Shown here in pieces: positions 18,671-62,800 of a stretch of 64,000 nt of DNA (positions are counted from its first letter, which is position 1; every line of letters starts with the position of its first letter). The position numbers and the translations under genes were made by a program. The DNA is taken from the NCBI GenBank assembly GCA_027023025.1, contig JALVXB010000036.1, positions 13,916 through 77,915 on the forward strand, given 5' to 3'. The notes below the pieces were generated by a model. That model ran no database searches. It was not told the DNA's origin and saw only the letters and a list, made by a program, of their open reading frames with translations. This stretch comes from Caldisericaceae bacterium (GTDB lineage Bacteria > Caldisericota > Caldisericia > Caldisericales > Caldisericaceae).

Positions 18671-19432
18671 GCGCTTGCTTTTCCGTATTTGTTAGGTGGA
18701 CGCTTTATAAAGCAATTTTACGGTAATTTGCCTGCGGGAGCGTGTTAACTTTCGGATAAATTTTCTATTCAGGATAATTTACTTTGGGCGAATTAAAACA
18801 ACGGGTAAGATTTTTTATTTCCGCGACAGTTAATGCGGAGGCGGCTCGTTTTTTAGAATTAGACCGTGATTATATTTATCAACTCTTTCACGCTTTTCGA
18901 TGTGTTCTGCACGCCAAAAGGTAAAATTTCTGCTGCGCTTTCCAAAATGCATTGTCGTTAGGGCAGAGATTCTTCACTCGCTTCACTCCTTCAGAATGAC
19001 GGGTTTTTTGTCGTCCTCGAGCGAAGGTTTTTTCGCTGTTCTGATCGCTTTTACAAAGGTACAAAGGATTGTAGTTTCTGTTTTTTCCTGTAGGTTTACA
19101 GTTAGGGCAGAGACTCTTCACTGCGCTCAGAGTGACAGAGTGCACCTTCATTTGGAAAGTTTTATTCCCCGCCATTCTTGAGCAAACACCCTCTCTACCG
19201 TCGTACTGAGTTCTCTTTACGAAGAACCACATTTTTGTATTCATAAAATTTGTATTATACTTAATTAAAAGATTGTTACCTTGAAAACTGTATTATCAGC
19301 GGAAGCAAAATTATAAAGGAAACCTATATTCTTTCTATTGTCTTTTGCCATGGTTAAAAAGGTATTACAAGAAATATGAAACTTTAATCTTTTTAATATA
19401 CAGTTTAAAATTTTGCTGTACTAAGAGTATAA
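18671..19432. other. intergenic region with dispersed elements
   Basis: About 760 bases without a supported gene. GCAGAG-type palindromic elements lie at about 18956-19000 and 19101-19136, with degenerate GTCGTCC-type fragments between and after them (about 19010-19070 and 19200-19225). Confidence 0.65.
18956..19136 (+). repeat. pair of dispersed palindromic elements
   Basis: Copies read GTTAGGGCAGAGATTCTTC...CAGAATGAC and GTTAGGGCAGAGACTCTTC...CAGAGTGAC, with a TCGTCCTCGAGCGA fragment between them. Confidence 0.8.
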
Positions 19433-30427: not shown

Positions 30428-30502
30428 GGACCTTACATTGGAAAGGACACGAAGTTTCTTTTCCAACTTTTCTTCCTATGGGAGTGGAAGATGAATTGGT
30501 AG
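30428..30502 (+). repeat. dispersed hairpin element, copy 1
   Basis: A 29-base hairpin (30438-30466; arms TTGGAAAGGA and TCTTTTCCAA) is followed by CTTTTCTTCCTATG. A related copy lies at 62740-62800. The reverse complement of the same element forms the head of each satellite CRISPR array (25 of 29 hairpin positions equal, with a compensatory A-T/G-C change in the stem). Confidence 0.8.
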
Positions 30503-32437: not shown

Positions 32438-33580
32438 ATGCACGATAAATTAAATAATACTTCTGGCGCTTCGAGTCATTCAAGCACTTCAAGCGCTTTG
32501 GGCAAGTCTGAAATGTCCGATGTATCTTCGAGGGAAATTAACGGCTCGGGAATTTCTCAAGGTCTGTCGCACAACTCAGAGACGCTTCACAAAAATTCGC
32601 TTTCCAAAGGCAAACTTTACGAAAGTACACTTTTTAATCTTCCTTTTCCAGACCTTACTTTTTCCGAATTCTTTATCAAACTCCGCCTTGACGAAGACAG
32701 TCCGTTCCTTAAAGAAACTTTTTTAGGTGCTGCACTCCGCGGTGCCGTAATGAACAGGACAAAGTACCTTTTGTGTGCAAATAAAAAGTCGTTCAACGAC
32801 TGCAGCAAGTGCATACTCGTGCAAAAGTGCGTGTATGCCCAGCTTTTTGAAACGAAACAGCGCGCAAGTGCAGAAATTATGAAAAAGTACAGAGAGATTC
32901 CCCACCCGTTTATTATGACTCCTCTTTTGGAGCAAAACGAAAACGGCAATTTGTCCGTTCGCATCGTGCTTTTCGGCGAATTTATCGAATACTTTCCCTA
33001 CTTCTACTTCGTATTTAAGTCTATGGAAGAGCGCAAAAAGTATAAAGTATTATCCGTTCAAAACTTTGATAAAGATGTACTAAATAACGGTAAACTAATA
33101 ACGCCTTTCGTCCGAATTTCTTCTAGAGATTTTGTTAACAGTGCAAACGGTAGTAAAACTTCGGAAAGTGCAGAGGTGGAAGTAACTTTTCTAACGCCGC
33201 TCCGTATTAAGAAAAATGGAAAACTCGTAAATCCCACTACTTTTGACTTCCAGTCATTCCTCACGAATGTCTTAAGGCGTATTACACTACTTTCTTACTT
33301 TTACGGCAATGAGTGGGGCGTTAGCGGTAAAGATGTGAAGGAGATAATCCGTGCAGCATCGTCCGTGTGCATCGTTAAAAACGAATTGGGCTGGCTGGAA
33401 CTTGAACGCTATTCTTCGCGCAGTAAAACATTTATGCCTATGGGTGGCATCGTGGGAAAAGTCGTTCTCTCAAAAGAGGCTTCGAAGTTCATTCCATTTT
33501 TAAAAGTAGGGCAATACACACAGGTGGGCAAGAATACTTCTTTTGGGCACGGCTATTACACGATAAAGTTGATTTTATAA
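32438..33580 (+). CDS. cas6: Cas6 CRISPR RNA endonuclease, with Ser-rich N-terminal extension
   Basis: 380 residues. About 60 Ser/Asn-rich residues come first. A RAMP-type protein follows: FLKETFLGAALRGAV, a cysteine cluster (CANKKSFNDCSKCILVQKC, about residues 110-128), and the Cas6 C-terminal signature GQYTQVGKNTSFGHGYY. It cuts the precursor crRNA within each repeat, leaving an 8-base 5' tag (ATTACAAC expected). AAGGAG precedes the ATG. It opens a nine-gene same-strand operon, 24 bases before csm1. The Ser-rich head is unusual for Cas6; an in-frame ATG lies at codon 26. Confidence 0.88.
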   Translation: MHDKLNNTSGASSHSSTSSALGKSEMSDVSSREINGSGISQGLSHNSETLHKNSLSKGKLYESTLFNLPFPDLTFSEFFIKLRLDEDSPFLKETFLGAALRGAVMNRTKYLLCANKKSFNDCSKCILVQKCVYAQLFETKQRASAEIMKKYREIPHPFIMTPLLEQNENGNLSVRIVLFGEFIEYFPYFYFVFKSMEERKKYKVLSVQNFDKDVLNNGKLITPFVRISSRDFVNSANGSKTSESAEVEVTFLTPLRIKKNGKLVNPTTFDFQSFLTNVLRRITLLSYFYGNEWGVSGKDVKEIIRAASSVCIVKNELGWLELERYSSRSKTFMPMGGIVGKVVLSKEASKFIPFLKVGQYTQVGKNTSFGHGYYTIKLIL

Positions 33581-33604
33581 GTTAAATAAGACGAGGGGGT
33601 GATT

Positions 33605-36055
33605 ATGAACGGAAAAGGTGTAAGTGATGAGGAACGGCTCGTTGCCGTCGCTGCCTTAATGCACGACATAGGAAAGTTCATGCAAAGAGACAACGATTAC
33701 GACGACATTTTCTCCTTATCTATGTTATTCCGAGATGTTCCTGAACTAAAAACCGGGTTTAACATTTCAGAAAGTAAAGAGTTTATTGATGGTATGAAGT
33801 TCCTTGTTAGGCACCATCACGAAAAAGACCTGGACAAACTTAAAAGTCCAGATGAACATTCTGCTGATGAGATGCGTGTACTTGCAGAGATTATCTCCGA
33901 AGCAGATAACATCTCAAGCAGAGAGAGGGAGGAGCTGAAAGGGCGCAATTTGCCTTTGATGAGGCCAATATTTTTAGAAGTGGGTTTCTCTGAAAGTGCC
34001 GTAAATAGAAGCACCGCAGACCAAACTACTACTGACGAAAAAAGCAAGGACTACTACTTTAAAATTTCTCCTCTGGACTTCAGCAAAGGTAAAGAAACTG
34101 TTATTCCTGAAAAAGGCACGCTTCCAGACGAAAAAATCGAAGAACTCTACAAAAAGCAGTGGCAGGCATTTAAAGAGGAATTTAAAAAGGTATTAAAACG
34201 CACGAAGGGCAGGTTAAATCCGGATGCGCTTTACTACCTTATGGAAAAATACTTCTGGTGCGTGCCTTCTGCTAACCCTAACGGCGTGCCCGATGTATCG
34301 CTGTTTGAACACTCAAAAGTTACTGCAGGCGTTGCTGTTTCAATGCTGCGCTCCAGAACAGGAAAGAATGCAGAGAAAGGGCGCTACCTCCTTGCGGGCA
34401 TTGATGTTAACGGAATTCAGAAGTTTATTTACTCTATTTCCTCAAAAAAGGCACTGAAAAGCCTGAAGGGGCGCTCAATTTTCGTGCAGTTCATTACGAA
34501 TTTAATCGTGCACAACATTCTCTGGGATAAAGAAGTAAACCTTTACGAGTCTAACATCATTTATATGGGCGGCGGCAAAGCGTATCTTATTTTGCCTGCT
34601 ACAGTGAAAGAGCGCTTGCAAGAGCTCTCTAAGGAAATAGAGAAATCTCTGTTTGAAAAGTTTGGAGAAGGGCTTTCCGTAACGGTTGGCTGGGTGGAGG
34701 CATCTGCAGATGACCTTATGCGCGGCAACATCTCGAAGACCTGGAACAACTTAATGTATGCACTTGCAGACAGGCGTACGCATAAGTACAGCGAAATCAT
34801 CCAGTCAGACTTTGCGTCGTTCTTTAACCCCGAAGAGAGCGGCGGTGAATTTAACGAGGAAGGCATCGGAAAAGGCAGGGTGATTTGCCCAATCTGCAGA
34901 AAGGAAGTGCCAGAGAGCGAAACAAAACTTACTCGAGATGGCCTTAAAGTGTGCAAAGAGTGCTATACCTACATTTCAATTGGGGAAAAGTTAAACTCAG
35001 ACGAACTTTACGCAATTATTACGACGGATAGTCTGTCAGGTAATAACATCGAAATTTCGCTTCCGAACCTGCCCGTAAAAATTTACCTTTCAGAAAAACC
35101 GGCAGAGCAAAATAATTCTGACCGTATGCTCACATTAAATGTGACTTCAACGGACCTTACAAAGGCGGACGGATTTATGCTTAATGCAGGTGGTAAATCG
35201 AATGTTTCTGAACTTTCAGGATTTATTGATAGTTCTGACGGTTTTAGGAGAATAGGTATATTAAAAATGGATGTGGACAGCCTTGGCGAGATTATGGCTT
35301 TAGGTATCAAGAATAATGAGAACAGGACGCTTTCCCGCATTTCACAGCTGAGCAGTTCTATTTCTATATTCTTTAAAGGGCACCTGCGGGAAATTTTAAT
35401 GCAAAAAGAATTTTCCGATAGAATCTACATTATTTATGCAGGTGGTGACGACCTGTTTGCAGTGGGTAACTGGCGTGCAATGCCGGCATTTGCAAAAAAG
35501 GTGCGCAGCGACTTCAAGCGCTTTGTTTGTGAGAACCCCGACATTTCTATTTCGGGCGGTATATTTATGATTAAGGATAAGTATCCAATTGCGCGCGGCG
35601 CAGGTTATGCGGACGACGCCGAGGAAGAAGCGAAGAGTTACGAGTATAAAACCCACAAAAAGGATGCAATTTACTTTCTTGGCAAGGCGTTAAGCTGGAA
35701 CGACTTTGAAGTTGCAGAGCATCTCAAAAACGAGCTCGTAAACTATACAGTTGAAGCAAAAAAGAAGTCAGCAATTCACAAGTTAAGACGCATTTACAAC
35801 CTTTACGAGCGTTCTCTAAATGTACTTTACAAAAAGGAGATAAGCGAGGAGGACATAGAGCGCAAGGCGCGGTGGTCAAAGTGGGTGTGGATACTTGCCT
35901 ACTATGTAGGTAGAAAAGACGGCGAAGCGCTCAGACCGCTTCAGGAAGCGCTTACAACAGACCAATTTGACGGTTTAGTTAGCGAAAAACAAATAATTTC
36001 ATATCTTGATGTCCCGGTAAACTGGGCAGACTTATTAACAAGGAGGGAAAAATAA
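33605..36055 (+). CDS. csm1: Cas10/Csm1, type III-A signature subunit
   Basis: 816 residues from ATG 33605, six bases after GAGGGGG (GTG 33599 overlaps that site). The N-terminal HD nuclease domain has MHDIGKF (H20, D21) and RHHHEKD. A zinc finger follows in the middle (CPICRKEVPE...CKEC). The palm domain contains YAGGDDLFAVG with GGDD at residues 613-616. The HD site cuts single-stranded DNA, and GGDD makes cyclic oligoadenylates after target RNA binding. Both sites look intact, matching the presence of a CARF-HEPN csm6 downstream. The stop and the csm2 start overlap (TAATG). Confidence 0.95.
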   Translation: MNGKGVSDEERLVAVAALMHDIGKFMQRDNDYDDIFSLSMLFRDVPELKTGFNISESKEFIDGMKFLVRHHHEKDLDKLKSPDEHSADEMRVLAEIISEADNISSREREELKGRNLPLMRPIFLEVGFSESAVNRSTADQTTTDEKSKDYYFKISPLDFSKGKETVIPEKGTLPDEKIEELYKKQWQAFKEEFKKVLKRTKGRLNPDALYYLMEKYFWCVPSANPNGVPDVSLFEHSKVTAGVAVSMLRSRTGKNAEKGRYLLAGIDVNGIQKFIYSISSKKALKSLKGRSIFVQFITNLIVHNILWDKEVNLYESNIIYMGGGKAYLILPATVKERLQELSKEIEKSLFEKFGEGLSVTVGWVEASADDLMRGNISKTWNNLMYALADRRTHKYSEIIQSDFASFFNPEESGGEFNEEGIGKGRVICPICRKEVPESETKLTRDGLKVCKECYTYISIGEKLNSDELYAIITTDSLSGNNIEISLPNLPVKIYLSEKPAEQNNSDRMLTLNVTSTDLTKADGFMLNAGGKSNVSELSGFIDSSDGFRRIGILKMDVDSLGEIMALGIKNNENRTLSRISQLSSSISIFFKGHLREILMQKEFSDRIYIIYAGGDDLFAVGNWRAMPAFAKKVRSDFKRFVCENPDISISGGIFMIKDKYPIARGAGYADDAEEEAKSYEYKTHKKDAIYFLGKALSWNDFEVAEHLKNELVNYTVEAKKKSAIHKLRRIYNLYERSLNVLYKKEISEEDIERKARWSKWVWILAYYVGRKDGEALRPLQEALTTDQFDGLVSEKQIISYLDVPVNWADLLTRREK

Positions 36056-36555
36056 TGGATAAAACAATCGAAGGCTTACAAAAAGCGACGAAAGAATTAG
36101 CCAAAGCAAGTTGGAGAGATCGAGAGAAATTTGACAGTATGAGAAAACTTTTAGAAAACACGGATGGATTATCCACTTCGATTATTGAAAAAGGTGATTC
36201 AAAAGTGCTTGTTGTAGCAGCTGAGGCAATGGGATTGTATTTAATGAAGCGGGGCATTACAAGCAGCCAGTTAAGAAACATCTTTGGATATGCCAAAAGG
36301 ATTGACGAGGAAGTTAAAAATACGAGTGAGCCGTTGAGCAGCGATGTTGTCCATAAACTCCTATTACTCTCTCCAAAACTTGCCTATGTTGCAGGAAGAG
36401 AAACAAACAGAGATAAAAAAGGAGCGCTCGAACTTTTACGTGAGTTTTTTGATAAGTGCGTGGAGAAAATAGGGACAGATGCAACAAAGTTCAAGCGTTT
36501 TATTGATTTATTTGAATCGATTTTATCTTATCATAAGTTTTATGGTGCAAAATAA
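36055..36555 (+). CDS. csm2: Csm2, small subunit of the type III-A complex
   Basis: 166 residues, helical. ITSSQLRNIFGYAKRI and LLLLSPKLAYVAGRE in the centre and FIDLFESILSYHKFYG at the end match Csm2. Several copies line the crRNA-target duplex in the complex. The start codon overlaps the csm1 stop by one base (TAATG) after AAGGAGGG, so the two are coupled. The N terminus carries about 45 extra residues before the core. Confidence 0.92.
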   Translation: MDKTIEGLQKATKELAKASWRDREKFDSMRKLLENTDGLSTSIIEKGDSKVLVVAAEAMGLYLMKRGITSSQLRNIFGYAKRIDEEVKNTSEPLSSDVVHKLLLLSPKLAYVAGRETNRDKKGALELLREFFDKCVEKIGTDATKFKRFIDLFESILSYHKFYGAK

Positions 36556-36573
36556 TTAAAGGAGGGATAAACA

Positions 36574-37305
36574 ATGGAAAGAGAAAAAGCACAACTCAAG
36601 AAAAAAATATTTATCAGGGGAAAGTTAAAGGCAATTACCGGTTTGCACATAGGAGGTTCTGACCAATCCCTTTCGATTGGCGGCGTGGACAATGTCGTGG
36701 TAAGGGATCCTATTACGAGTATGCCGTATGTCCCAGGCTCTTCAATAAAGGGGAAGATGCGCACCCTCGTCGAAAAACTACACGGACTTATAGATGAGAA
36801 AGGCAAAGTTTACGAACCAGGCGAAGATGCACCTAAAGAGGGCAAACTACTGGGGAAAGTGTTCGGCGTTTCTGCGCAGAATAAACTTAGTGAGCCCACT
36901 CGTTTAATCGTGCGCGATGCGATGCTTACTGAAGAAAGTGCAAAAGAGTTGGAGCGTTTGGAAACGGACCTTCCTTATACAGAGGTAAAAACAGAAGTTA
37001 CGATTAACCGTCTTACATCGGCGGCAAATCCCCGCCAGATGGAGCGCGTGCCCGCAGGTGCAGAGTTTGCTTTCGAGATGGTGCTGAACATTTACCAGGG
37101 AGACGATGAGAAAGAACTACTGAAGATGGTGTTTGAAGGTATGGAACTTTTGCAGGATGACTTTTTAGGAGGCAGCGGAACACGTGGATACGGCAAGATA
37201 AAACTCTTCGTGGACAATCTGCATTACAAAGATGTAAACACTTACAAAGAGTTGCAGCCAGAAAAGGAATACGCAGAGGTTAAAATTCCTGAAGCATTGA
37301 AATAG
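36574..37305 (+). CDS. csm3: Csm3, backbone RAMP and target-RNA nuclease
   Basis: 243 residues. GLHIGGSDQSLSIGGVDN gives the RAMP N-terminal strand with the catalytic Asp (D39), then RDPITSMPYVPGSSIKGKMR. The C-terminal glycine loop is GGSGTRGYGKI. Csm3 forms the backbone filament and cuts target RNA every six bases. The catalytic Asp is present. Length is typical. GGAGGG precedes the ATG, 18 bases past csm2. Confidence 0.96.
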   Translation: MEREKAQLKKKIFIRGKLKAITGLHIGGSDQSLSIGGVDNVVVRDPITSMPYVPGSSIKGKMRTLVEKLHGLIDEKGKVYEPGEDAPKEGKLLGKVFGVSAQNKLSEPTRLIVRDAMLTEESAKELERLETDLPYTEVKTEVTINRLTSAANPRQMERVPAGAEFAFEMVLNIYQGDDEKELLKMVFEGMELLQDDFLGGSGTRGYGKIKLFVDNLHYKDVNTYKELQPEKEYAEVKIPEALK

Positions 37306-37317
37306 TGGTGGTTCACT

Positions 37318-38367
37318 ATGGACACATACATTTATAAACTGAAGTTCCGCTCTCCGCTGCACATAAGTTCCGATGCGCTTTCTCTTGGGAAGCCAGATGT
37401 ATTTTTGCATTCAGATACGCTGTTTTCTGCAATCGTGAACAGTTGGATAAACCTATACGACTTATCTGCACAATTTTTTGAAAACCCACCGTTTATTATC
37501 TCGTCTGCTTTTCCGTTTTACAAAGATACTCTTTTCGTAAAAAAGCCGTACGCCCGCTTGAAAATCAATCAACAGGAATTTGAGCGACACCGCAAAAAGA
37601 TTAAAAAGACTGTTTTCATTTCTATGAGTTTATTTGAAAAGTTTGCGAAAGGAGAAGAAGTGTCCGTTTCGGAAAAGAACTTTCTTGAGGGCGGTTTTTT
37701 ATCGGATGTGGAGATAAACGAGCGGATTTATTCCGTTCAAGAACGCCCCCGCTCCTTCATTCCAAGGTACATTCCCGATTCTTCGGCAGACTCTTCAGAA
37801 GGCTTTGCAGCAGATGAGGGTGAGAATGTAAAAACGGAGATTTTCTACACCACCGCAGTACACTTCTCTGACAACGCCGGGCTTTTCTTCTTTGCATCGT
37901 TTGAAAGTAAAGAAGTAAAAAAGCAGTTTGACGGTGCGCTTTACCTTCTGGGAGATACAGGGATAGGTGGAAACAGGACGAATGGGTACGGACTATTTGA
38001 GGTGGAAAAAACAGAAAAGTTCAACAATCCTTTTGAAAGTGGCGATTATGCTATTGCGCTTTCTCTATACCACCCAAAGGAAGAAGAAGTGAAAAACGGC
38101 ATTCTAAGCGGTGCGCACTTTAGCGTTGTTTCTCGCCAGAGCTGGATTTTCTCTGGTAGTGCACGCCCCTACCGCAGCAAAAAGGTGCGTATGTTTGACG
38201 AGGGCAGCATATTTAAGGGCTGCGGTGATTTAAGTGGTGATGTGCCAGACATTACTCCCCGCATTGCAGAAGAAGCGAACATCTTTCCTCACAGAATTTA
38301 CCGCTATGGAAAAATTTTCAAATTCTGTCTTCCAGCAAGTGTATTAACGGAGGCAAACGATGGATAA
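37318..38367 (+). CDS. csm4: Csm4, 5'-tag-binding RAMP subunit
   Basis: 349 residues. YKLKFRSPLHISSDALSLG at the N terminus and the glycine-rich LGDTGIGGNRTNGYGLFEV loop in the centre are Csm4 hallmarks. It binds the 8-base 5' tag of the crRNA and docks Cas10. A loop rich in Ser/Asp (about 155-180) looks like an insertion. Its end overlaps the start of csm5 by eight bases. Confidence 0.93.
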   Translation: MDTYIYKLKFRSPLHISSDALSLGKPDVFLHSDTLFSAIVNSWINLYDLSAQFFENPPFIISSAFPFYKDTLFVKKPYARLKINQQEFERHRKKIKKTVFISMSLFEKFAKGEEVSVSEKNFLEGGFLSDVEINERIYSVQERPRSFIPRYIPDSSADSSEGFAADEGENVKTEIFYTTAVHFSDNAGLFFFASFESKEVKKQFDGALYLLGDTGIGGNRTNGYGLFEVEKTEKFNNPFESGDYAIALSLYHPKEEEVKNGILSGAHFSVVSRQSWIFSGSARPYRSKKVRMFDEGSIFKGCGDLSGDVPDITPRIAEEANIFPHRIYRYGKIFKFCLPASVLTEANDG

Positions 38368-39559
38368 AAGTATAAAAATACCGCTAACTATGGAGTTTCT
38401 CACGCCTCTCCACATAGGAAGCGGCAAAACATTGCGTTTTGGACAGGATGTATTCCGCTCTAAGGATGGAGACCTTTTTGTAATCTCATTCGATAAATTG
38501 CTTGAAGAACTTTCAACAGATAGGCACTTATTTGCTCAAATAACAGATGCGCTGAGCAGAGGGGAGGGAGTAGAACGCCTTGTCCCTGAAGAACACTTGA
38601 AAAAATACGAAATTTACAAATTGGAAAATGTATCTACTGCTTATGCTACAGATGTATCCGGTTTTATAAAAGATGCGTACAACCGTCCTTTTGTGCCAGC
38701 AAGTTCTATAAAGGGTGGGCTGCGCACGCTTATCTTCCGTGCGTTCTTAATGGACCATCCAGAGTTTGTAAAAGAATTTGAAGATTCTTTACCACGGGGA
38801 CGCATCAGAAAAGAAGATCAAAAGAGAATTAAACAGCGTGCTTTGAGCTTTGAAAAAGACATTTTTGGCAGGAATGCTCAAAAAGATCCGTTGAAGGCAC
38901 TGCGCGTTGTGGACGCATACTCTAACGGCCTTAGGCTTGCCACTGTGAAAGTGCTGGACCTTTCGAACGACGGCACTCAGTGCGGCTGGAGAAAAGCGGC
39001 GGGACAGTTTGGCAAGTTAGAAAGCATTGACAGGGCAACGCCGATAAGTGTCGAAGTGGGTTTTTCAAGTACTGCACAGGTGGAACTCTATATAGATACA
39101 TTCTTTATGGAGCGTTTTAATACAAATTTATTTAAAATGTCTAAACCCAAGTGGTTCGTAGCATTGTTTAATAATTTCTACGAAAAATTTGTGGATTACT
39201 CTAAAAAGTTTGCTCTTTACGACATTGATTACGAAATAGATTTTCTTAACGAGTATGCAAATCGTTGTAATGTAACAGATGTAATTAAAAAGTACAAAGC
39301 GCTTAAAGAACAGGTAAAAAGTGAAGACGGAATTTTTATGCACATTGCCTGGGGAATTGGCTGGAGAGGTATGGGTGGAAGCGTTCTTTCTGATGAAAGT
39401 GCATTGACGCTTGCTCATTCATTAGGGTTGGACAGGTGGAGAAGTGCTTCTATATTCCCAAAGACGCGCCGCTACATCACGGTAAACCTAAAGGGAGAGG
39501 GAGAAAGAGCGAAATTCCCTCTTGGCTGGGTAAAACTCTCTAAAGGAGGTGTAAAGTGA
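38360..39559 (+). CDS. csm5: Csm5, 3'-end-capping RAMP subunit
   Basis: 399 residues. MEFLTPLHIGSGKTLRFGQDVF, RPFVPASSIKGGLRTLIF and the C-terminal GWGIGWRGMGGS region match Csm5. It caps the 3' end of the backbone and recruits trimming nucleases. The stop codon overlaps the GTG start of csm6 (GTGA), after AAAGGAGGTG. Confidence 0.93.
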   Translation: MDKSIKIPLTMEFLTPLHIGSGKTLRFGQDVFRSKDGDLFVISFDKLLEELSTDRHLFAQITDALSRGEGVERLVPEEHLKKYEIYKLENVSTAYATDVSGFIKDAYNRPFVPASSIKGGLRTLIFRAFLMDHPEFVKEFEDSLPRGRIRKEDQKRIKQRALSFEKDIFGRNAQKDPLKALRVVDAYSNGLRLATVKVLDLSNDGTQCGWRKAAGQFGKLESIDRATPISVEVGFSSTAQVELYIDTFFMERFNTNLFKMSKPKWFVALFNNFYEKFVDYSKKFALYDIDYEIDFLNEYANRCNVTDVIKKYKALKEQVKSEDGIFMHIAWGIGWRGMGGSVLSDESALTLAHSLGLDRWRSASIFPKTRRYITVNLKGEGERAKFPLGWVKLSKGGVK

Positions 39560-41157
39560 TTATCGTTTATCCACTGGGAAACAGCGATATGGTTTTTGAT
39601 GAGGCTCCTCTTTTAAAGGCATTTGGAGACAAAGACAACATACGCAGCGGAACGGAGAAAATAATCAAGGAAATAAATAGCAGCGGTTTTGAGTTGCGCA
39701 CATTTCCTGCAAAACTCCAGTCGTCCAGAGTGTACGGCATCATCTATCCAAAAAACGGAAAAGAAAAGCACACATTGAAGTTTCCGTTGCTCAGCGCTTT
39801 GTTTGAGTATATAGATGAGGAATATCGGAAGAGGCCAAAGGATGTCCGCTATTATTTTCTCTACACAAACCAAACAGGCGACAAAAATGGACAGGACACG
39901 ATCCACATCTACGAAATTATAGAGAAATTTTTGAAAGAAGGGCTTCAAATAAAAGATGTGCGCGGTAAGTCTATTGAGGTTAATCCTACCAAACTTTCTT
40001 TGCTTAAAGGCGTGGCAAAGTCCTTGCGTACTGATTTAGAAGAAATGGTAAAAACAAGTTCTGGAAATGAGGAAATAATCATTGCAATTGGTCCGGGCAC
40101 ACCTCAAATGAATATAGCGCTCCTCCTATACCTGTTTGATGTGGAGAATGTCCACTTTGCTTACATCCCGCGTGGAGATAGACCGTATAACCTCCAATTT
40201 GCCCGTGAAATTCACTCTTCACAAACAAAGCGTGCCGTGCTGCAGCTCGTAGAGCACTTTGACTACCGCTCGGCCCTGCTTCTTTATAAGGATTTGCCGG
40301 ACGAAGAAAAACGGGAAATAAATTTGCTCAGGGCTCTTTCTCTGCGTGTGGACTTTAACTTCAATGAAGCATACGAGGCATTGCGCAAGTATCTGGACAA
40401 ATTCGAGCATAAGCCCAGTGAACTAAAGGATTTTGAGTTAGAATTAAAGCGGCTTGCAAACCTGGACAAAAAAGCCTTGCTTCAGGAACTCTACTACGAG
40501 TTTGCTTTAAGAATAGAAATGGAGCATTATCTTGAAGCAGTAGCAATGCTGTTCCGCATAGAAGAAGAACTTTTGAAAATGCTGGTGGAAAAAGTGCTCA
40601 ATGTCACAATAGAAGGTGAGAAAACTCCAAATGGAGATCTTTCGTTCGGTTGGTTCTGGAAAAGGTTGTCTGATGAGAACAAAGACCTCGTGGAAGAGTT
40701 AAATAAAGAAAAAGTCCGTACGAGCGGCACACCGAACAGAATAACCTATCAGAAAATTCTTAACTACTTATACAACGAGTACAAAAGTTTGAGTGAGGAT
40801 AAAAGAAAAGAGAAGGAAAAACTTGGAGTTAAAAACATTACCGAATTAGAAAAGGCCCTTAAAGAAAACATCAGCAAAGTAGAAAAAGTCCTGGAGTTTT
40901 ACGAGTACATAGAAAAGGAAAAAAGAACCGGCGCAAAGTACAGTCTGGTTGAGTTAAGAAATAAAACTCCGTTCGCGCACGGCTTTGAAGGTGTAAGCGA
41001 GAAGAAAGTAAAAGAAACTGCAATACCCGTAGATGAATTGCTCGGAAAGGTGAAAGAGACATTTAAGGCACTTGATGTGGATGTGATACCTCCAAACGAT
41101 TTGGCGTTCCCTTTCAGAAAAGTGAACGGTTATTTAGAAAAGAAACTTAAAGAATAA
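39556..41157 (+). CDS. csm6: Csm6-type CARF-HEPN ribonuclease
   Basis: 533 residues from GTG 39556. The N-terminal CARF domain (about 1-225) has IIAIGPGTPQMNIALLLYL, a ligand loop for cyclic oligoadenylate. A helical linker (about 230-400) leads to a HEPN domain whose catalytic R-x6-H is RNKTPFAH (R468, H475). When Cas10 makes cyclic oligoadenylate, such proteins degrade RNA nonspecifically. The CARF type (preferred ring size) cannot be told by eye. Overlaps csm5 by four bases and cas1 by one base. Confidence 0.9.
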   Translation: MIIVYPLGNSDMVFDEAPLLKAFGDKDNIRSGTEKIIKEINSSGFELRTFPAKLQSSRVYGIIYPKNGKEKHTLKFPLLSALFEYIDEEYRKRPKDVRYYFLYTNQTGDKNGQDTIHIYEIIEKFLKEGLQIKDVRGKSIEVNPTKLSLLKGVAKSLRTDLEEMVKTSSGNEEIIIAIGPGTPQMNIALLLYLFDVENVHFAYIPRGDRPYNLQFAREIHSSQTKRAVLQLVEHFDYRSALLLYKDLPDEEKREINLLRALSLRVDFNFNEAYEALRKYLDKFEHKPSELKDFELELKRLANLDKKALLQELYYEFALRIEMEHYLEAVAMLFRIEEELLKMLVEKVLNVTIEGEKTPNGDLSFGWFWKRLSDENKDLVEELNKEKVRTSGTPNRITYQKILNYLYNEYKSLSEDKRKEKEKLGVKNITELEKALKENISKVEKVLEFYEYIEKEKRTGAKYSLVELRNKTPFAHGFEGVSEKKVKETAIPVDELLGKVKETFKALDVDVIPPNDLAFPFRKVNGYLEKKLKE

Positions 41158-42143
41158 TGAGCACGATATACCTCACCACTCAGGGCTCAACTTTACGGAA
41201 AGAGGAGCATCGTTTCACTGTGGTAAAAGACGGGAAGACGGTGCTCTCCGTCCCGGACTTCAAAGTGGACAGGATTCTCGTCTACGGAAGTGTGCAAATT
41301 ACGACTCAGGCGTTGCGCTTTGCCTTACACAACGACATTCCCATTACATTTCTCACTATGTACGGCCGTCTTATCGGTGCGGCGCTTCCCTCTTTTTCCA
41401 AAAATATATTTTTGCGCATAAATCAGTTTAAAAGATTGTCTTTAGATAGTGAGCGGGTTCTTTTGGCTAAAAAGGTACTTTCAGCAAAAGTTTCAAATAG
41501 CCTTACGATGCTAAAGCGCTTTGCCCGCAGCAAAGGCTTTCAAATTATAAACGAAAATAAGTTTCACTCTGCTCGCTTTGACATAGAAAACGCAAATTCG
41601 ATAGGGACGCTGCGCGGTGTGGAGGGTGGCGTATCTTCTGTGTACTTTATGAACCTTCGTGAGTTGCTTTCGCCTGAAGTATCATTTAAAGGAAGGAACT
41701 ATCACCCGGCAAAAGACCCTTTTAACTCTCTGCTTAACTTTCTTTACAGTTTGCTTTCCAATGAAATGCTGGGAGTAATCCACTCAAAAGGGCTTGATCC
41801 TTATCTTGGGTTTTTGCACTCCGTTGAGTACGGTAGGTTTTCTCTGGTGTTTGACCTCGTGGAACCGTTTCGTGCGTGTATTGCCGACGCCGTTGCAGTA
41901 AAACTGTTCCGCAAAGGAATAATAGACGGAACAGACTTTAAAAAGCACAAACTCTACGGTTTTGTATTAAAAGATGATATGAGGAAAGTTGTTCTGAAAC
42001 ACTACGAAGAGAAAGTGGAAACAGAATTTATATACGAAGGTGCACGATTAAATTTCAGACAGGTGTTTGTGAAAATGGTAGACAGTTTTTCAGATTACAT
42101 CTCTGAGGGTAAGGATTTTAGGCCATTTGTTTTGAAAAAATGA
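41157..42143 (+). CDS. cas1: Cas1 spacer integrase
   Basis: 328 residues. Metal-binding residues E156 (LRGVEGGVSSVYF), H221 (LGFLHSVEYGR) and E236 (FDLVEPFR) are all in place. Cas1 with Cas2 inserts new spacers at the leader-proximal repeat. TAATG overlap with csm6 and ATGA overlap with cas2 place adaptation inside the interference operon. No reverse transcriptase is fused. Confidence 0.96.
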   Translation: MSTIYLTTQGSTLRKEEHRFTVVKDGKTVLSVPDFKVDRILVYGSVQITTQALRFALHNDIPITFLTMYGRLIGAALPSFSKNIFLRINQFKRLSLDSERVLLAKKVLSAKVSNSLTMLKRFARSKGFQIINENKFHSARFDIENANSIGTLRGVEGGVSSVYFMNLRELLSPEVSFKGRNYHPAKDPFNSLLNFLYSLLSNEMLGVIHSKGLDPYLGFLHSVEYGRFSLVFDLVEPFRACIADAVAVKLFRKGIIDGTDFKKHKLYGFVLKDDMRKVVLKHYEEKVETEFIYEGARLNFRQVFVKMVDSFSDYISEGKDFRPFVLKK

Positions 42144-42424
42144 AAAAGAAGTTCTATGTGATTAGTTACGACATAAAGGACGACAAGCGGAGGACCCGCG
42201 TATTTAAAATAATGCGTAACTTCGGCACGCGGGTTCAGTTTAGCGTTTTTGAGTGCATACTGTCAGACGAAAAAATGCAGGAACTACACGATAAAATTGA
42301 AAAAACAATTAAAACCGACGAAGACAGCGTAAGGATATACTACATTCCCGAAAGTTTGAAGAAAAAAATAAAAATTATTGGCGTCGGGGAAGTGGTGCGT
42401 GACCAGAAGTATTTCGTCGTTTAA
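42140..42424 (+). CDS. cas2: Cas2
   Basis: 94 residues. FYVISYDIKDDKRRTRVFKIMRNFGTRVQFSVFEC is the Cas2 ferredoxin-like fold with its conserved N-terminal Asp. The end VRDQKYFVV is also typical. It bridges two Cas1 dimers during spacer integration. It starts inside the last codons of cas1. The CRISPR leader begins directly afterwards. Confidence 0.96.
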   Translation: MKKKFYVISYDIKDDKRRTRVFKIMRNFGTRVQFSVFECILSDEKMQELHDKIEKTIKTDEDSVRIYYIPESLKKKIKIIGVGEVVRDQKYFVV

Positions 42425-42645
42425 CTGGAAAAATGCTGTTGCAATTTAGGCTCTTTATGACTATAATAAAAAGTAAAGTTTTTTGAGATCCACGAAAAGT
42501 GGAAAAGTTGTAGTTGTTTTATTTATTTTTTGCTGCAGTATTTGCATAGAAAGTGTAAAAATATACCTTGACAATTGCACGATTTTTTGAGATCCACGAA
42601 AATGAGCCTGCAAATCCTCTGTTTATCAGTGCCCATACGAGGGGT
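42425..42645 (+). promoter_or_regulatory. CRISPR leader with two 20-base direct repeats
   Basis: AT-rich leader between cas2 and the first repeat. TTTTTTGAGATCCACGAAAA occurs at 42479-42498 and again at 42583-42602 with identical sequence, 104 bases apart. The second copy ends 43 bases before the first repeat. TTGACA (42568-42573) is a possible -35 box. CCACGAAAAGTGG at the first copy can form a small hairpin. Confidence 0.8.
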
Positions 42646-44016
42646 GTCTGAATCTTGCCCTGATTAAAAAGGGATTACAACCTGTGATTTCAAATTTTTT
42701 ATACTCTTCGTATTTTTGCCCGTCTGAATCTTGCCCTGATTAAAAAGGGATTACAACTTTCAAAAGATTCGTTCAGCGTGGAAAAAGTGGTTGGTCTGAA
42801 TCTTGCCCTGATTAAAAAGGGATTACAACACCAGAAGCCAAATCCGGAGAGACTAAACCTTTTGTCTGAATCTTGCCCTGATTAAAAAGGGATTACAACA
42901 TAATTCACCATTTTGCACAAGAGCCAGTCGGCTATTATGTCTGAATCTTGCCCTGATTAAAAAGGGATTACAACTTCAAATTGCTCCATCTTATTCTATA
43001 TGGAGCATAAGTCTGAATCTTGCCCTGATTAAAAAGGGATTACAACACGACAATTATTATCTCTACAATGAAGGCTACTTCTGGGTCTGAATCTTGCCCT
43101 GATTAAAAAGGGATTACAACGTTTACCTGCTATTGTTGCTGTTGCACAAGCGGTATTAGAAGTCCGAATCTTGCCCTGATTAAAAAGGGATTACAACGCA
43201 AGACGCAATGCTAAGTACAGCATACTTCGCCTCCTTTGTCCGAATCTTGCCCTGATTAAAAAGGGATTACAACTTCAATACGACGGCTGAGTAAAACGGG
43301 TGCATTTTGTCTGAATCTTGCCCTGATTAAAAAGGGATTACAACTCCATATAACGCTTTGAGGTCTTCATCCATTTCCTCCTTTAGTCCGAATCTTGCCC
43401 TGATTAAAAAGGGATTACAACATATAATTGTGTTCAGTATCAACAGTTGAAATATCTTCGTCCGAATCTTGCCCTGATTAAAAAGGGATTACAACAGGAT
43501 TATATCCTATTGAGTGTCTTTTTATAACTTCAAGTCCGAATCTTGCCCTGATTAAAAAGGGATTACAACGTTTACCTGCTATTGTTGCTGTTGCACAAGC
43601 GGTATTAGAAGTCCGAATCTTGCCCTGATTAAAAAGGGATTACAACGCAAGACGCAATGCTAAGTACAGCATACTTCGCCTCCTTTGTCTGAATCTTGCC
43701 CTGATTAAAAAGGGATTACAACTTTCAAAAGATTCGTTCAGCGTGGAAAAAGTGGTTGGTCTGAATCTTGCCCTGATTAAAAAGGGATTACAACATCTAC
43801 TTCGTTGCCGACGGCTATCAATATCTTTTATGTCTGAATCTTGCCCTGATTAAAAAGGGATTACAACAATTTGCTGCATAAGTGTTCTTGCTTGCACTAA
43901 ATTGTCCGAATCTTGCCCTGATTAAAAAGGGATTACAACTCCATATAACGCTTTGAGGTCTTCATCCATTTCCTCCTTTAGTCCGAATCTTGCCCTGATT
44001 AAAAAGGGATTACAAG
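42646..44016 (+). CRISPR. main CRISPR array, 19 repeats and 18 spacers (14 distinct)
   Basis: 36-base repeats begin GTCYGAATCTTGCCCTG and end GGGATTACAAC, with an internal CCCT/AGGG stem. The first is at 42646-42681 and the last, whose final base is G, at 43981-44016. Spacers are 34-41 bases. Spacers 7 and 8 (43121-43161, 43198-43237) recur as 13 and 14 (43570-43610, 43647-43686). Spacer 2 recurs as 15, and 10 as 18. Position 4 of the repeat is T in repeats 1-7, 10 and 15-17, and C in the others. It is transcribed rightwards with the cas operon if the leader at 42425-42645 is used. Confidence 0.98.
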
Positions 44017-44020
44017 CAAA

Positions 44021-44041
44021 TCGAGGGACGGATTCCCTCGA
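44021..44041 (+). terminator. hairpin closing array 1
   Basis: TCGAGGGA and TCCCTCGA, perfect 8-bp stem with loop CGGAT, followed by a pyrimidine-rich tail. The same hairpin follows every array here. Confidence 0.75.
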
Positions 44042-44379
44042 AACTCCTTTCTTTTGTGAAGGTGTTCAATAATTTTACGGTGGTTAATTTTTTATGTGTT
44101 TAACACCCGTATTGTTTTTTTAGTGCTTATAACTTCCAATTGAAGGCATTTAATGCAGAGACTCTTTGCTTCGCTCAGAGTGACAAAGTGTTTTATCATT
44201 TTAAGCACATTTTTTTAATTCCACTATCATTTGTGAGCCATTCTCAGAGTTTTTCTCCCCCGTCATCCTCGAGCGAGCGTCAGCGAGCGAAGGATCTCGT
44301 TTTTAAATCCTTCAAGTTTGCACTATACTTTATTAGCAGTTTGCTTACCTTGAAAAGCGCACGAACATAGGAAGCAAAG
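44042..44379. other. spacer region between array 1 and first satellite
   Basis: No gene. Sequence 44042-44165 is homologous to 45491-45617 after the last satellite (shared TTAATTTTTTATGTGTTTAAC). Two dispersed palindromic elements (about 44150-44183 and 44263-44297) follow. Confidence 0.7.
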
Positions 44380-44408
44380 TTAGAAAGGAAACTCCGTGTC
44401 CTTTCTAA
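44380..44408 (+). repeat. head hairpin of satellite array A (inverted dispersed element)
   Basis: TTAGAAAGGA and TCCTTTCTAA form a 10-bp stem with a 9-base loop. This is the reverse complement of the dispersed hairpin family at 30438-30466 and 62740-62768. It lies directly before a truncated CRISPR repeat. Confidence 0.8.
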
Positions 44409-44414
44409 TGTGTT

Positions 44415-44808
44415 TTGCCCTGATTAAAAAGGGATTACAACCACAACAGTAATTTCTGGAACATCAACAGTAAGTAATTTGTCTGAATCTTGCCCTGATT
44501 AAAAAGGGATTACAACTCAATACCTAAGTCCATTTCCTCACCCCTTTTATTTTGTCCGAATCTTGCCCTGATTAAAAAGGGATTACAACATTGTAAACCG
44601 TTGCTCTTCAATTGCTCTGCTTTGTCCGAATCTTGCCCTGATTAAAAAGGGATTACAACTTCATCGTGTCGAGAACAATACAAAGAGCTTCCTCAAGGTC
44701 CGAATCTTGCCCTGATTAAAAAGGGATTACAACACAAAGCAACTCTGAATATTCTATCTCCTTAAAGGACGTGTCCGAATCTTGCCCTGATTAAAAAGGG
44801 ATTACAAG
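44415..44808 (+). CRISPR. satellite CRISPR array A, 6 repeats (first truncated), 5 spacers
   Basis: The first repeat keeps only its 3' 27 bases (44415-44441, from TTGCCCTG). Full repeats start at 44481, 44554, 44624, 44698 and 44773. The last ends in G instead of C, exactly as in array 1. Spacers of 34-39 bases. No leader like 42425-42645 precedes it. Confidence 0.96.
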
Positions 44809-44812
44809 CAAA

Positions 44813-44833
44813 TCGAGGGACAGGTTCCCTCGA
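44813..44833 (+). terminator. hairpin closing satellite array A
   Basis: TCGAGGGA/TCCCTCGA with loop CAGGT, three bases longer downstream by one G. Same position relative to the last repeat as in the other arrays. Confidence 0.75.
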
Positions 44834-44889
44834 GGCTCCTTTCGTTTTGCCTGCTTGCAATGAATTGCCTACAGGTTAAAATGTGAAAA

Positions 44890-45284
44890 GTGCTTACCTT
44901 GAAAAGTGCCCGAACAGAGGAAGCAAAGTTAGAAAGGAAACTCCGTGTCCTTTCTAATGTGTTTTGCCCTGATTAAAAAGGGATTACAACCACAACAGTA
45001 ATTTCTGGAACATCAACAGTAAGTAATTTGTCCGAATCTTGCCCTGATTAAAAAGGGATTACAACTCAATACCTAAGTCCATTTCCTCACCCCTTTTATT
45101 TTGTCCGAATCTTGCCCTGATTAAAAAGGGATTACAACTTCAATCTCTTCTTTCAATCCCATCTTTCTCTCCTTCGTCCGAATCTTGCCCTGATTAAAAA
45201 GGGATTACAACGGAATTACTGAGTTCATCCTGTTTTTACCTCCTCTTTGTCCGAATCTTGCCCTGATTAAAAAGGGATTACAAG
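44890..45284 (+). CRISPR. satellite CRISPR array B with head module, 5 repeats (first truncated), 4 spacers
   Basis: The head module (44890-44963) repeats that of array A, including the hairpin. The truncated repeat is 44964-44990. Full repeats start at 45030, 45103, 45176 and 45249, the last with the terminal G. Spacers 1 and 2 equal those of array A; spacers 3 and 4 (45139-45175, 45212-45248) are new. Confidence 0.95.
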
Positions 45285-45288
45285 CAAA

Positions 45289-45309
45289 TCGAGGGACGGA
45301 TTCCCTCGA
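45289..45309 (+). terminator. hairpin closing satellite array B
   Basis: TCGAGGGA/TCCCTCGA with loop CGGAT. The following 45310-45366 is almost identical to 44834-44890, marking a tandem unit. Confidence 0.75.
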
Positions 45310-45366
45310 GGCTCCTTTCTTTTTGCCTGCTTGCAATGAATTGCTTACAGGTTAAAATGTGAAAAG

Positions 45367-45490
45367 TGCTTACCTTGAAAAGTGCACGAACAGAGGAAGA
45401 AAAGTTAGAAAGGAAACCCCGTGTCCTTTCTAATTGTTTTGCCCTGATTAAAAAGGGATTACAAGCAAATCGAGGGACAGGTTCCCTCGA
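45367..45490 (+). repeat. collapsed satellite module: head hairpin, one fused repeat, tail hairpin, no spacer
   Basis: The head module (hairpin with loop AACCCCGTG) leads into a truncated repeat (45439-45465) that already has the terminal G. It runs directly into the tail hairpin (45470-45490). First and last repeats seem to have recombined, deleting all spacers. Confidence 0.88.
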
Positions 45491-62702: not shown

Positions 62703-62800
62703 TCCTCGAGCGAGCGTTAGCGAGCGGAGGACATTACACTGGAGAGGACACGAAGTTTTCTTTCTAACTTTTCTTCCTGTTGAGTGTAGAAAGTGGGTGA
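62703..62800 (+). repeat. dispersed hairpin element, copy 2, with GTCATCC-type element
   Basis: TCCTCGAGCGAGCGTTAGCG...GGAGGAC (about 62702-62732) is followed by the 29-base hairpin homologue (62740-62768) and CTTTTCTTCCTG, parallel to 30421-30502. Confidence 0.78.

Follow-up and report, generated by a model that had tools for sequence, protein, structure and literature searches.

The type III-A CRISPR locus of a Caldisericaceae genome (G000, 1.66 Mb) is followed by short satellite arrays in which the inner leader and the beginning of the first repeat are replaced by a hairpin, and the same design is present in two further genera of the family. This architecture is real and conserved, and it is a variant of duplicated, leader-defective CRISPR arrays; no description of it was found in the literature searched. 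We propose that the satellites are duplicated mini-arrays whose leader-repeat junction was swapped for a hairpin, and that they are transcribed and processed, read-only at the head and reshuffled by recombination. Our judgement on this proposal as a whole is evenly divided.

The locus and its satellite arrays

The window, i.e. the whole stretch of DNA that was analysed (64,000 nucleotides, G000:C36:13916-77915), contains a locus in the order cas6-csm1-6-cas1-cas2-leader-main array, and approximately 280 bp past the main array three satellites with 5, 4 and 0 spacers. The features of this region, and a related unit 23 kb upstream of the array, are as follows.

19276..19374, plus strand: decayed solo satellite (leader motif, hairpin and cut repeat; no tail hairpin), 23 kb upstream of the array
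32438..42424, plus strand: type III-A cas operon (cas6, cas10/csm1, csm2, csm3, csm4, csm5, csm6-like, cas1, cas2), NCBIfam matches
42425..42645, plus strand: leader of the main array, ~220 bp, with promoter-like site and leader motif
42439-42467, plus strand: promoter-like site TTGCAA-17-TATAAT in the main leader
42565-42574, plus strand: leader motif ACCTTGACAA in the main leader
42646..44016, plus strand: main array, 19 repeats and 18 spacers
44018..44041, plus strand: tail hairpin of the main array, TCGAGGGA/TCCCTCGA, then AACTCCTTTC
44302-44329, plus strand: promoter-like site of satellite 1 (within the head stretch 44302..44366)
44347-44356, plus strand: leader motif ACCTTGAAAA of satellite 1
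44366..44412, plus strand: stretch of satellite 1 in common with dispersed copies, CATAGGAAG..AATGTG, including the hairpin 44380-44408
44415..44808, plus strand: array of satellite 1, 5 spacers, final repeat ending with ACAAG
44415-44441, plus strand: first repeat of satellite 1, lacking 9 nt
44810..44833, plus strand: tail hairpin of satellite 1
44855..44957, plus strand: head of satellite 2, with promoter-like site 44855-44882, motif ACCTTGAAAA 44896-44905 and hairpin 44929-44957
44964..45284, plus strand: array of satellite 2, cut first repeat and 4 spacers
45286..45309, plus strand: tail hairpin of satellite 2
45331..45433, plus strand: head of satellite 3, with promoter-like site 45331-45358, motif 45372-45381 and hairpin 45405-45433
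45439..45465, plus strand: satellite 3, a solo unit with one repeat lacking its first 9 nt, last base altered, 0 spacers
45467..45490, plus strand: tail hairpin of satellite 3

In the cas operon, Csm1-5, Cas1 and Cas2 exceed the NCBIfam cut-off, and Cas6 and Csm6 fall below it. With 36-nt repeats and spacers of 34-41 nt adjoining the III-A cas genes, the main array has the constant-length repeats and unique spacers of a functional III-A array. Its leader-first-repeat junction is intact, and a second locus, on contig C38, has the same leader. The final repeat (43981-44016) ends with ACAAG and not with ACAAC. Along the main array (42646-44016), the repeats are of the type GTCTGAATC near the leader and change to a mixture with GTCCGAATC farther off.

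Each satellite starts with a promoter-like site, followed by the motif ACCTTGAAAA, the sequence GGAAG[CA]AAAG, a 29-nt head hairpin of the form TTAGAAAGGA-N9-TCCTTTCTAA and a cut first repeat; then come the spacers, if any, a final repeat with the ACAAG end and a tail hairpin. The cut repeats start at TTGCCC (44415, 44964 and 45439), which corresponds to the repeat without its first 9 nt, GTCYGAATC. When the arm pattern of the head hairpin was searched with up to three mismatches, four matches were obtained, and none in 100 shuffles. A previous description of this DNA, made from the letters alone (the sequence-only reading), had reported three modules consisting of a 29-base hairpin and a repeat without its first 9 bases, and was right in coordinates and description. 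Beyond it, we note that the third module is spacerless and that the main array is closed by the same tail hairpin, TCGAGGGA..TCCCTCGA, as every satellite (44018, 44810, 45286 and 45467).

The leader-first-repeat junction of the satellites is not intact: both the inner leader and the repeat start (9 nt) have been replaced, and the distance between motif and repeat is 82 bp in the main leader of the window and 68-69 bp in its satellites. In the predicted fold, the head hairpin and the repeat stem are separate. A leader-repeat hairpin in which the leader pairs with an extra repeat was also considered and rejected, since the repeat stem is predicted to be free of the leader. Satellites 1 and 2 have 248 nt in common at 98% identity, in agreement with the earlier suggestion that element, array and tail were amplified together in tandem. 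The decayed solo satellite at 19276-19374 is 79% identical to satellite 3 over 99 nt (E 2.4e-16), and satellite 3 is 99% identical to a solo unit beside the second array on C37.

The same design in other genera

In G005 (genus g5, JALSNB01), a member of the same family as G000, the same modules of head hairpin, cut repeat and tail hairpin exist beside leadered arrays. On its contig C345 the main leader, an array and a tail hairpin are followed by satellites with 2, 1, 4 and 0 spacers, and one further satellite with 2 spacers is located on C62. The hairpins of these satellites have the 29-nt geometry of those in G000, each with a cut first repeat. This bears on the possibility of an assembly artefact or of collapsed repeats. 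Indeed, contigs of both genomes break within such arrays (C37, C38, C62, C118 and C345), and the exact copy number in 44.0-45.5 kb of the window could still be wrong. However, independent assemblies from different genera agree in the order of the modules while their sequences and spacers differ, and the second locus of G000 repeats the arrangement. An artefact in the module order, which the sequence-only reading had named as a refuting outcome, is a very improbable explanation of the satellites.

In G013 (genus g7) the layout is the same, and a hairpin of different sequence (TTCGAAGGGG..CCCCTTCGA) occupies the same place; its relation to the hairpins of G000 and G005 is suggested by position and a short stretch in common only. 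The satellites of G013 are spacerless units with repeats lacking about the first 5 nt. One of them, on contig C62, is away from arrays and adjoins an ileS-like gene (named from its sequence by eye). Here a leader of approximately 200 bp, homologous to the main leader of G013, ends at ACCTTGACAACTGAA and is followed by hairpin and cut repeat. The score of this leader homology was reached by none of 1000 shuffles. The corresponding leader similarity in G000 and G005 involves approximately 20 bp, with 2 to 56 of 1000 shuffles reaching its score. All three genera have the motif ACCTTGA[AC]AA in their main leaders, and most satellite heads contain it as well; it is missing from some satellites of G005 and G013.

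Based on the occurrence of the same design in two related genera, we regard it as an old, inherited arrangement, older than the G000 genome. An exact-repeat scan of public genomes other than G000 itself returned G005 alone among Caldisericaceae, and near other cas1 genes of the family an array detector identified repeats of other types. In G013, the closest Cas1 match is only 26% identical. Its satellites are possibly relics, and its arrays on C13, C96 and C62 may be orphans or may depend on other cas genes.

Solo units were found in all three genera, two of them at a distance from arrays (19276 in the window and G013:C62, beside ileS). Together with the 99% identity of the solo units in the window and on C37, this could mean that the satellite is a small mobile or selected RNA unit, whose basic form is the spacerless one and serves to sequester Cas6 or the effector, the spacers being secondary and due to recombination. 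We consider this unlikely, since most satellites are arranged in tandem behind an array and the stand-alone copies are decayed or leadered, as array remnants should be; further, a hairpin and not a guide follows the solo repeat, and there is no link to a transposase. CreTA ectopic repeats (PMC9458426) and RNA anti-CRISPRs (Racrs, PMC10651486) are similar in that they also are solitary or degenerate repeat units outside normal arrays, but the units described here are not viral, show no toxin RNA or guide, and have a hairpin after the solo repeat.

Dispersed relatives of the hairpins

Hairpin copies were counted genome-wide with a covariance model (E below 1e-4). The head hairpin is present in 30 copies in G000, four of them at CRISPR satellites (three in the window and one on C37, next to the second array). 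The other 26 are dispersed, and all 22 dispersed copies examined are intergenic. Two dispersed copies are located in the window:

30438..30466, minus strand: dispersed head-hairpin copy, away from CRISPR
62740..62768, minus strand: dispersed head-hairpin copy with imperfect stem

These two relatives had already been recognized from the letters of the window, and they are real; the genome-wide count extends them to a family, so that the hairpin is not unique to CRISPR loci. Having many intergenic copies, it is a dispersed palindromic repeat (REP/MITE-like). CRISPR-linked and dispersed copies have approximately 47 bp with sharp ends in common (44366-44412). The compensatory stem change that had also been proposed holds for one stem pair (A-T to G-C, also T-A), while the stem at 62740 itself is imperfect. 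We rejected strong covariation of the stem, because this pair alone varies on both sides: 89% of cells are paired, the covariation score was equalled by 3 of 500 shuffles, and slid controls scored similarly.

Like REP- and MITE-type palindromes, the dispersed copies are short intergenic hairpins in tens of copies, forming mosaics with other palindromes of the GTCATCCTGAG type; unlike for such elements, no terminal repeats or target duplication are shown, and the CRISPR-linked copies are conserved across genera. No family match was obtained in an Rfam search of the element at E 0.1. Mobility of the hairpin-bounded unit by an IS200/IS605-type mechanism was rejected, since a Y1 transposase (PF01797) is absent from the G000 genome. 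At two places (L028, G000:C43:48872, and L075, G001:C52:10293) the loop of the hairpin has the opposite orientation to the flanking sequence, which looks as though the centre of the palindrome had been flipped by recombination.

The abundance of the head hairpin differs between genomes: G001, which is of the same genus as G000, 77% complete and without this CRISPR repeat, has 19 copies, and G005 has exactly seven, all seven at satellites. The sequence-only reading had proposed that a mobile palindromic element was inserted into a CRISPR repeat at the window locus and that the interrupted array was then amplified in tandem. The 26 dispersed copies in G000, the 19 in G001 and the sharp ends of the common stretch would be in line with this. 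After a simple insertion, however, the missing 9 nt of the repeat start should be found beyond the element, and GTCYGAATC is absent within 120 bp upstream of every hairpin in the window, so the two halves of a target repeat do not flank the element. Moreover, the design is present in other genera, all hairpin copies in G005 are CRISPR-linked, the leader is cut away as well in G013, and G000 has no Y1 transposase. We could not sustain the insertion for these reasons and judge it an unlikely history of the locus. For an empty-site comparison, the flanking mnmA gene was looked for in G001 and not found in that 77% complete genome.

The event is a replacement at the leader-repeat junction, older than G000. 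We regard G013:C62 as the clearest case; its head substitutes for the leader-proximal segment and the repeat start in an otherwise homologous leader. As to the direction of spread, the hairpin could have come either from the dispersed family into CRISPR or from CRISPR into the dispersed family.

The tail hairpin directly adjoins the last repeat, and in two genomes, G005 and G013, it takes the place of the last 4 nt of the crRNA tag. In its searched form it is present in five copies in G000, all at CRISPR. G002, which lacks this CRISPR repeat, has 27 dispersed copies of a close relative. At these 27 places (L158-L187) the tail-type hairpin CGAGGGAACACATTTCCCTCGAAACTCC is located mostly directly after GTCACCCTGAG..CAGGGTCT. 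Both array caps therefore belong to hairpin families with dispersed members somewhere in Caldisericaceae. The idea that the head hairpin is an inverted tail hairpin (both read hairpin-AACT-pyrimidines) was dropped: most comparisons with random hairpins were non-significant, and 2 of 16 pairs gave low values.

Duplication, probable expression and proposed loss of the writing site

The second locus on C38 (L129, G000:C38:23895-24153) starts inside a cas2 copy, of which the 3' end is present (VVRDQKYFVV*), and continues with the same leader. This is direct evidence of segmental duplication, in which the array was copied together with its leader and the breakpoint was inside cas2. Satellites 1 and 2 have identical first two spacers and differ in the rest (three in satellite 1, two in satellite 2), and two satellites of G005 have the first spacer alone in common. 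In both genomes with such pairs, the shared spacers are thus head-proximal and not tail-proximal. This fits satellites that do not gain spacers at the head, since acquisition at the head end after duplication predicts the opposite, but the signal comes from two satellite pairs only, and recombination between repeats could erase or mimic it. Such recombination would best explain the later spacer differences, and the main array, with its duplicated blocks of spacers, is in line with it.

Duplicated or leaderless short arrays are known (PMC12814883), and the satellites resemble them as extra short arrays with the same repeat near one cas locus and with partial spacer overlap. They differ in that a specific hairpin repeatedly replaces the junction and is kept across genera, and in that head-proximal spacers are shared, whereas the cited survey expects leader-distal spacers to be shared longest.

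No protospacers for the arrays were found in phage records. Viral contigs searched with three spacer cores, and 61 genomes searched with one satellite spacer, likewise gave no match beyond the arrays themselves. In a post hoc test with spacers from 42682-45248 of the window and from the G005 and G013 arrays, 8 of 65 distinct spacers were antisense to a ribosome-binding site with ATG and none was sense, with ~0.6 expected from random segments of the window. Translation starts thus seem to be over-represented among the spacers, although Cas1 gave no match to a reverse transcriptase.

The satellites retain the promoter-like site, the repeat stem CCCT..AGGG, the crRNA 5' tag of 8 nt (ATTACAAC) and, in most cases, the upstream leader motif; they have lost the inner leader and 5-9 nt from the start of the first repeat. 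Promoter-like sites are present once per leader (main array and three satellites), all on the plus strand; two are homologous, the motif is loose, and the four matches in the region do not exceed chance (5.8 expected). In our model of duplicated mini-arrays, in which a hairpin known also from dispersed palindromic copies has taken the place of the junction, this upstream site would still drive transcription of each satellite, and Cas6 would probably still process the transcripts, since the repeat stem and the tag are intact. The sequence spanning the leader-repeat junction is read by Cas1-Cas2 in studied systems (PMC6895254, PMC4574026). As this junction is gone, Cas1-Cas2 would no longer be able to insert at the satellite head, by analogy with type I and II systems, from which the junction requirement is known. 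Recombination between repeats and between modules would have increased the number of the resulting read-only arrays and rearranged them.

At the other end, the tail hairpin may end the transcript and spoil the extraneous crRNA of the last repeat. In class 1 systems extraneous crRNA derives from the last repeat (PMC13187072); thus the tail hairpin could silence a by-product, and it alone could have a crRNA-blocking role here. Hairpins beside the first repeat are also found in type II-A and VI-B systems, where leader-repeat hairpins block extraneous crRNA (PMC13187072), and in II-C arrays with terminators or hairpins (PMC12080349). In leader-repeat hairpin systems, however, the leader RNA pairs with the repeat, whereas the satellites have a cut repeat and a hairpin that pairs only with itself.

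Alternatively, the head hairpin could be an insulator against antisense transcription, the antisense strand reading hairpin-AACTTTTCTTCC, with the tail hairpins stopping sense transcription. Upstream terminators were reported to insulate II-C arrays (PMC12080349), and few parts of the element are as well conserved as the flank GGAAGNAAAG. We hold this function to be quite unlikely, since a terminator scan detected none at the head hairpins and, in sense, a T-rich tail after only one of the tail hairpins, and the heads in G005 and G013 have no T-run after them in the sense direction.

It is tempting to speculate that Caldisericaceae keep a heritable second class of arrays, read-only and hairpin-headed, made by exchanging the acquisition end of the leader for a hairpin and kept by selection as a protected long-term memory beside a normal, growing array; we regard this as rather unlikely. 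Even if the locking of the satellites were wrong, dispersed hairpins cap both ends of CRISPR arrays in Caldisericaceae, and a single array design has undergone copying and reshuffling on the time scale of genera. If our model of read-only mini-arrays is true, the satellites would be a natural in-cis separation of reading and writing of CRISPR memory, in which promoter and processing signals are kept and the writing site is removed in a defined way common to three genera. This would make it possible to test what a III-A leader needs for acquisition and for expression, and how arrays multiply.
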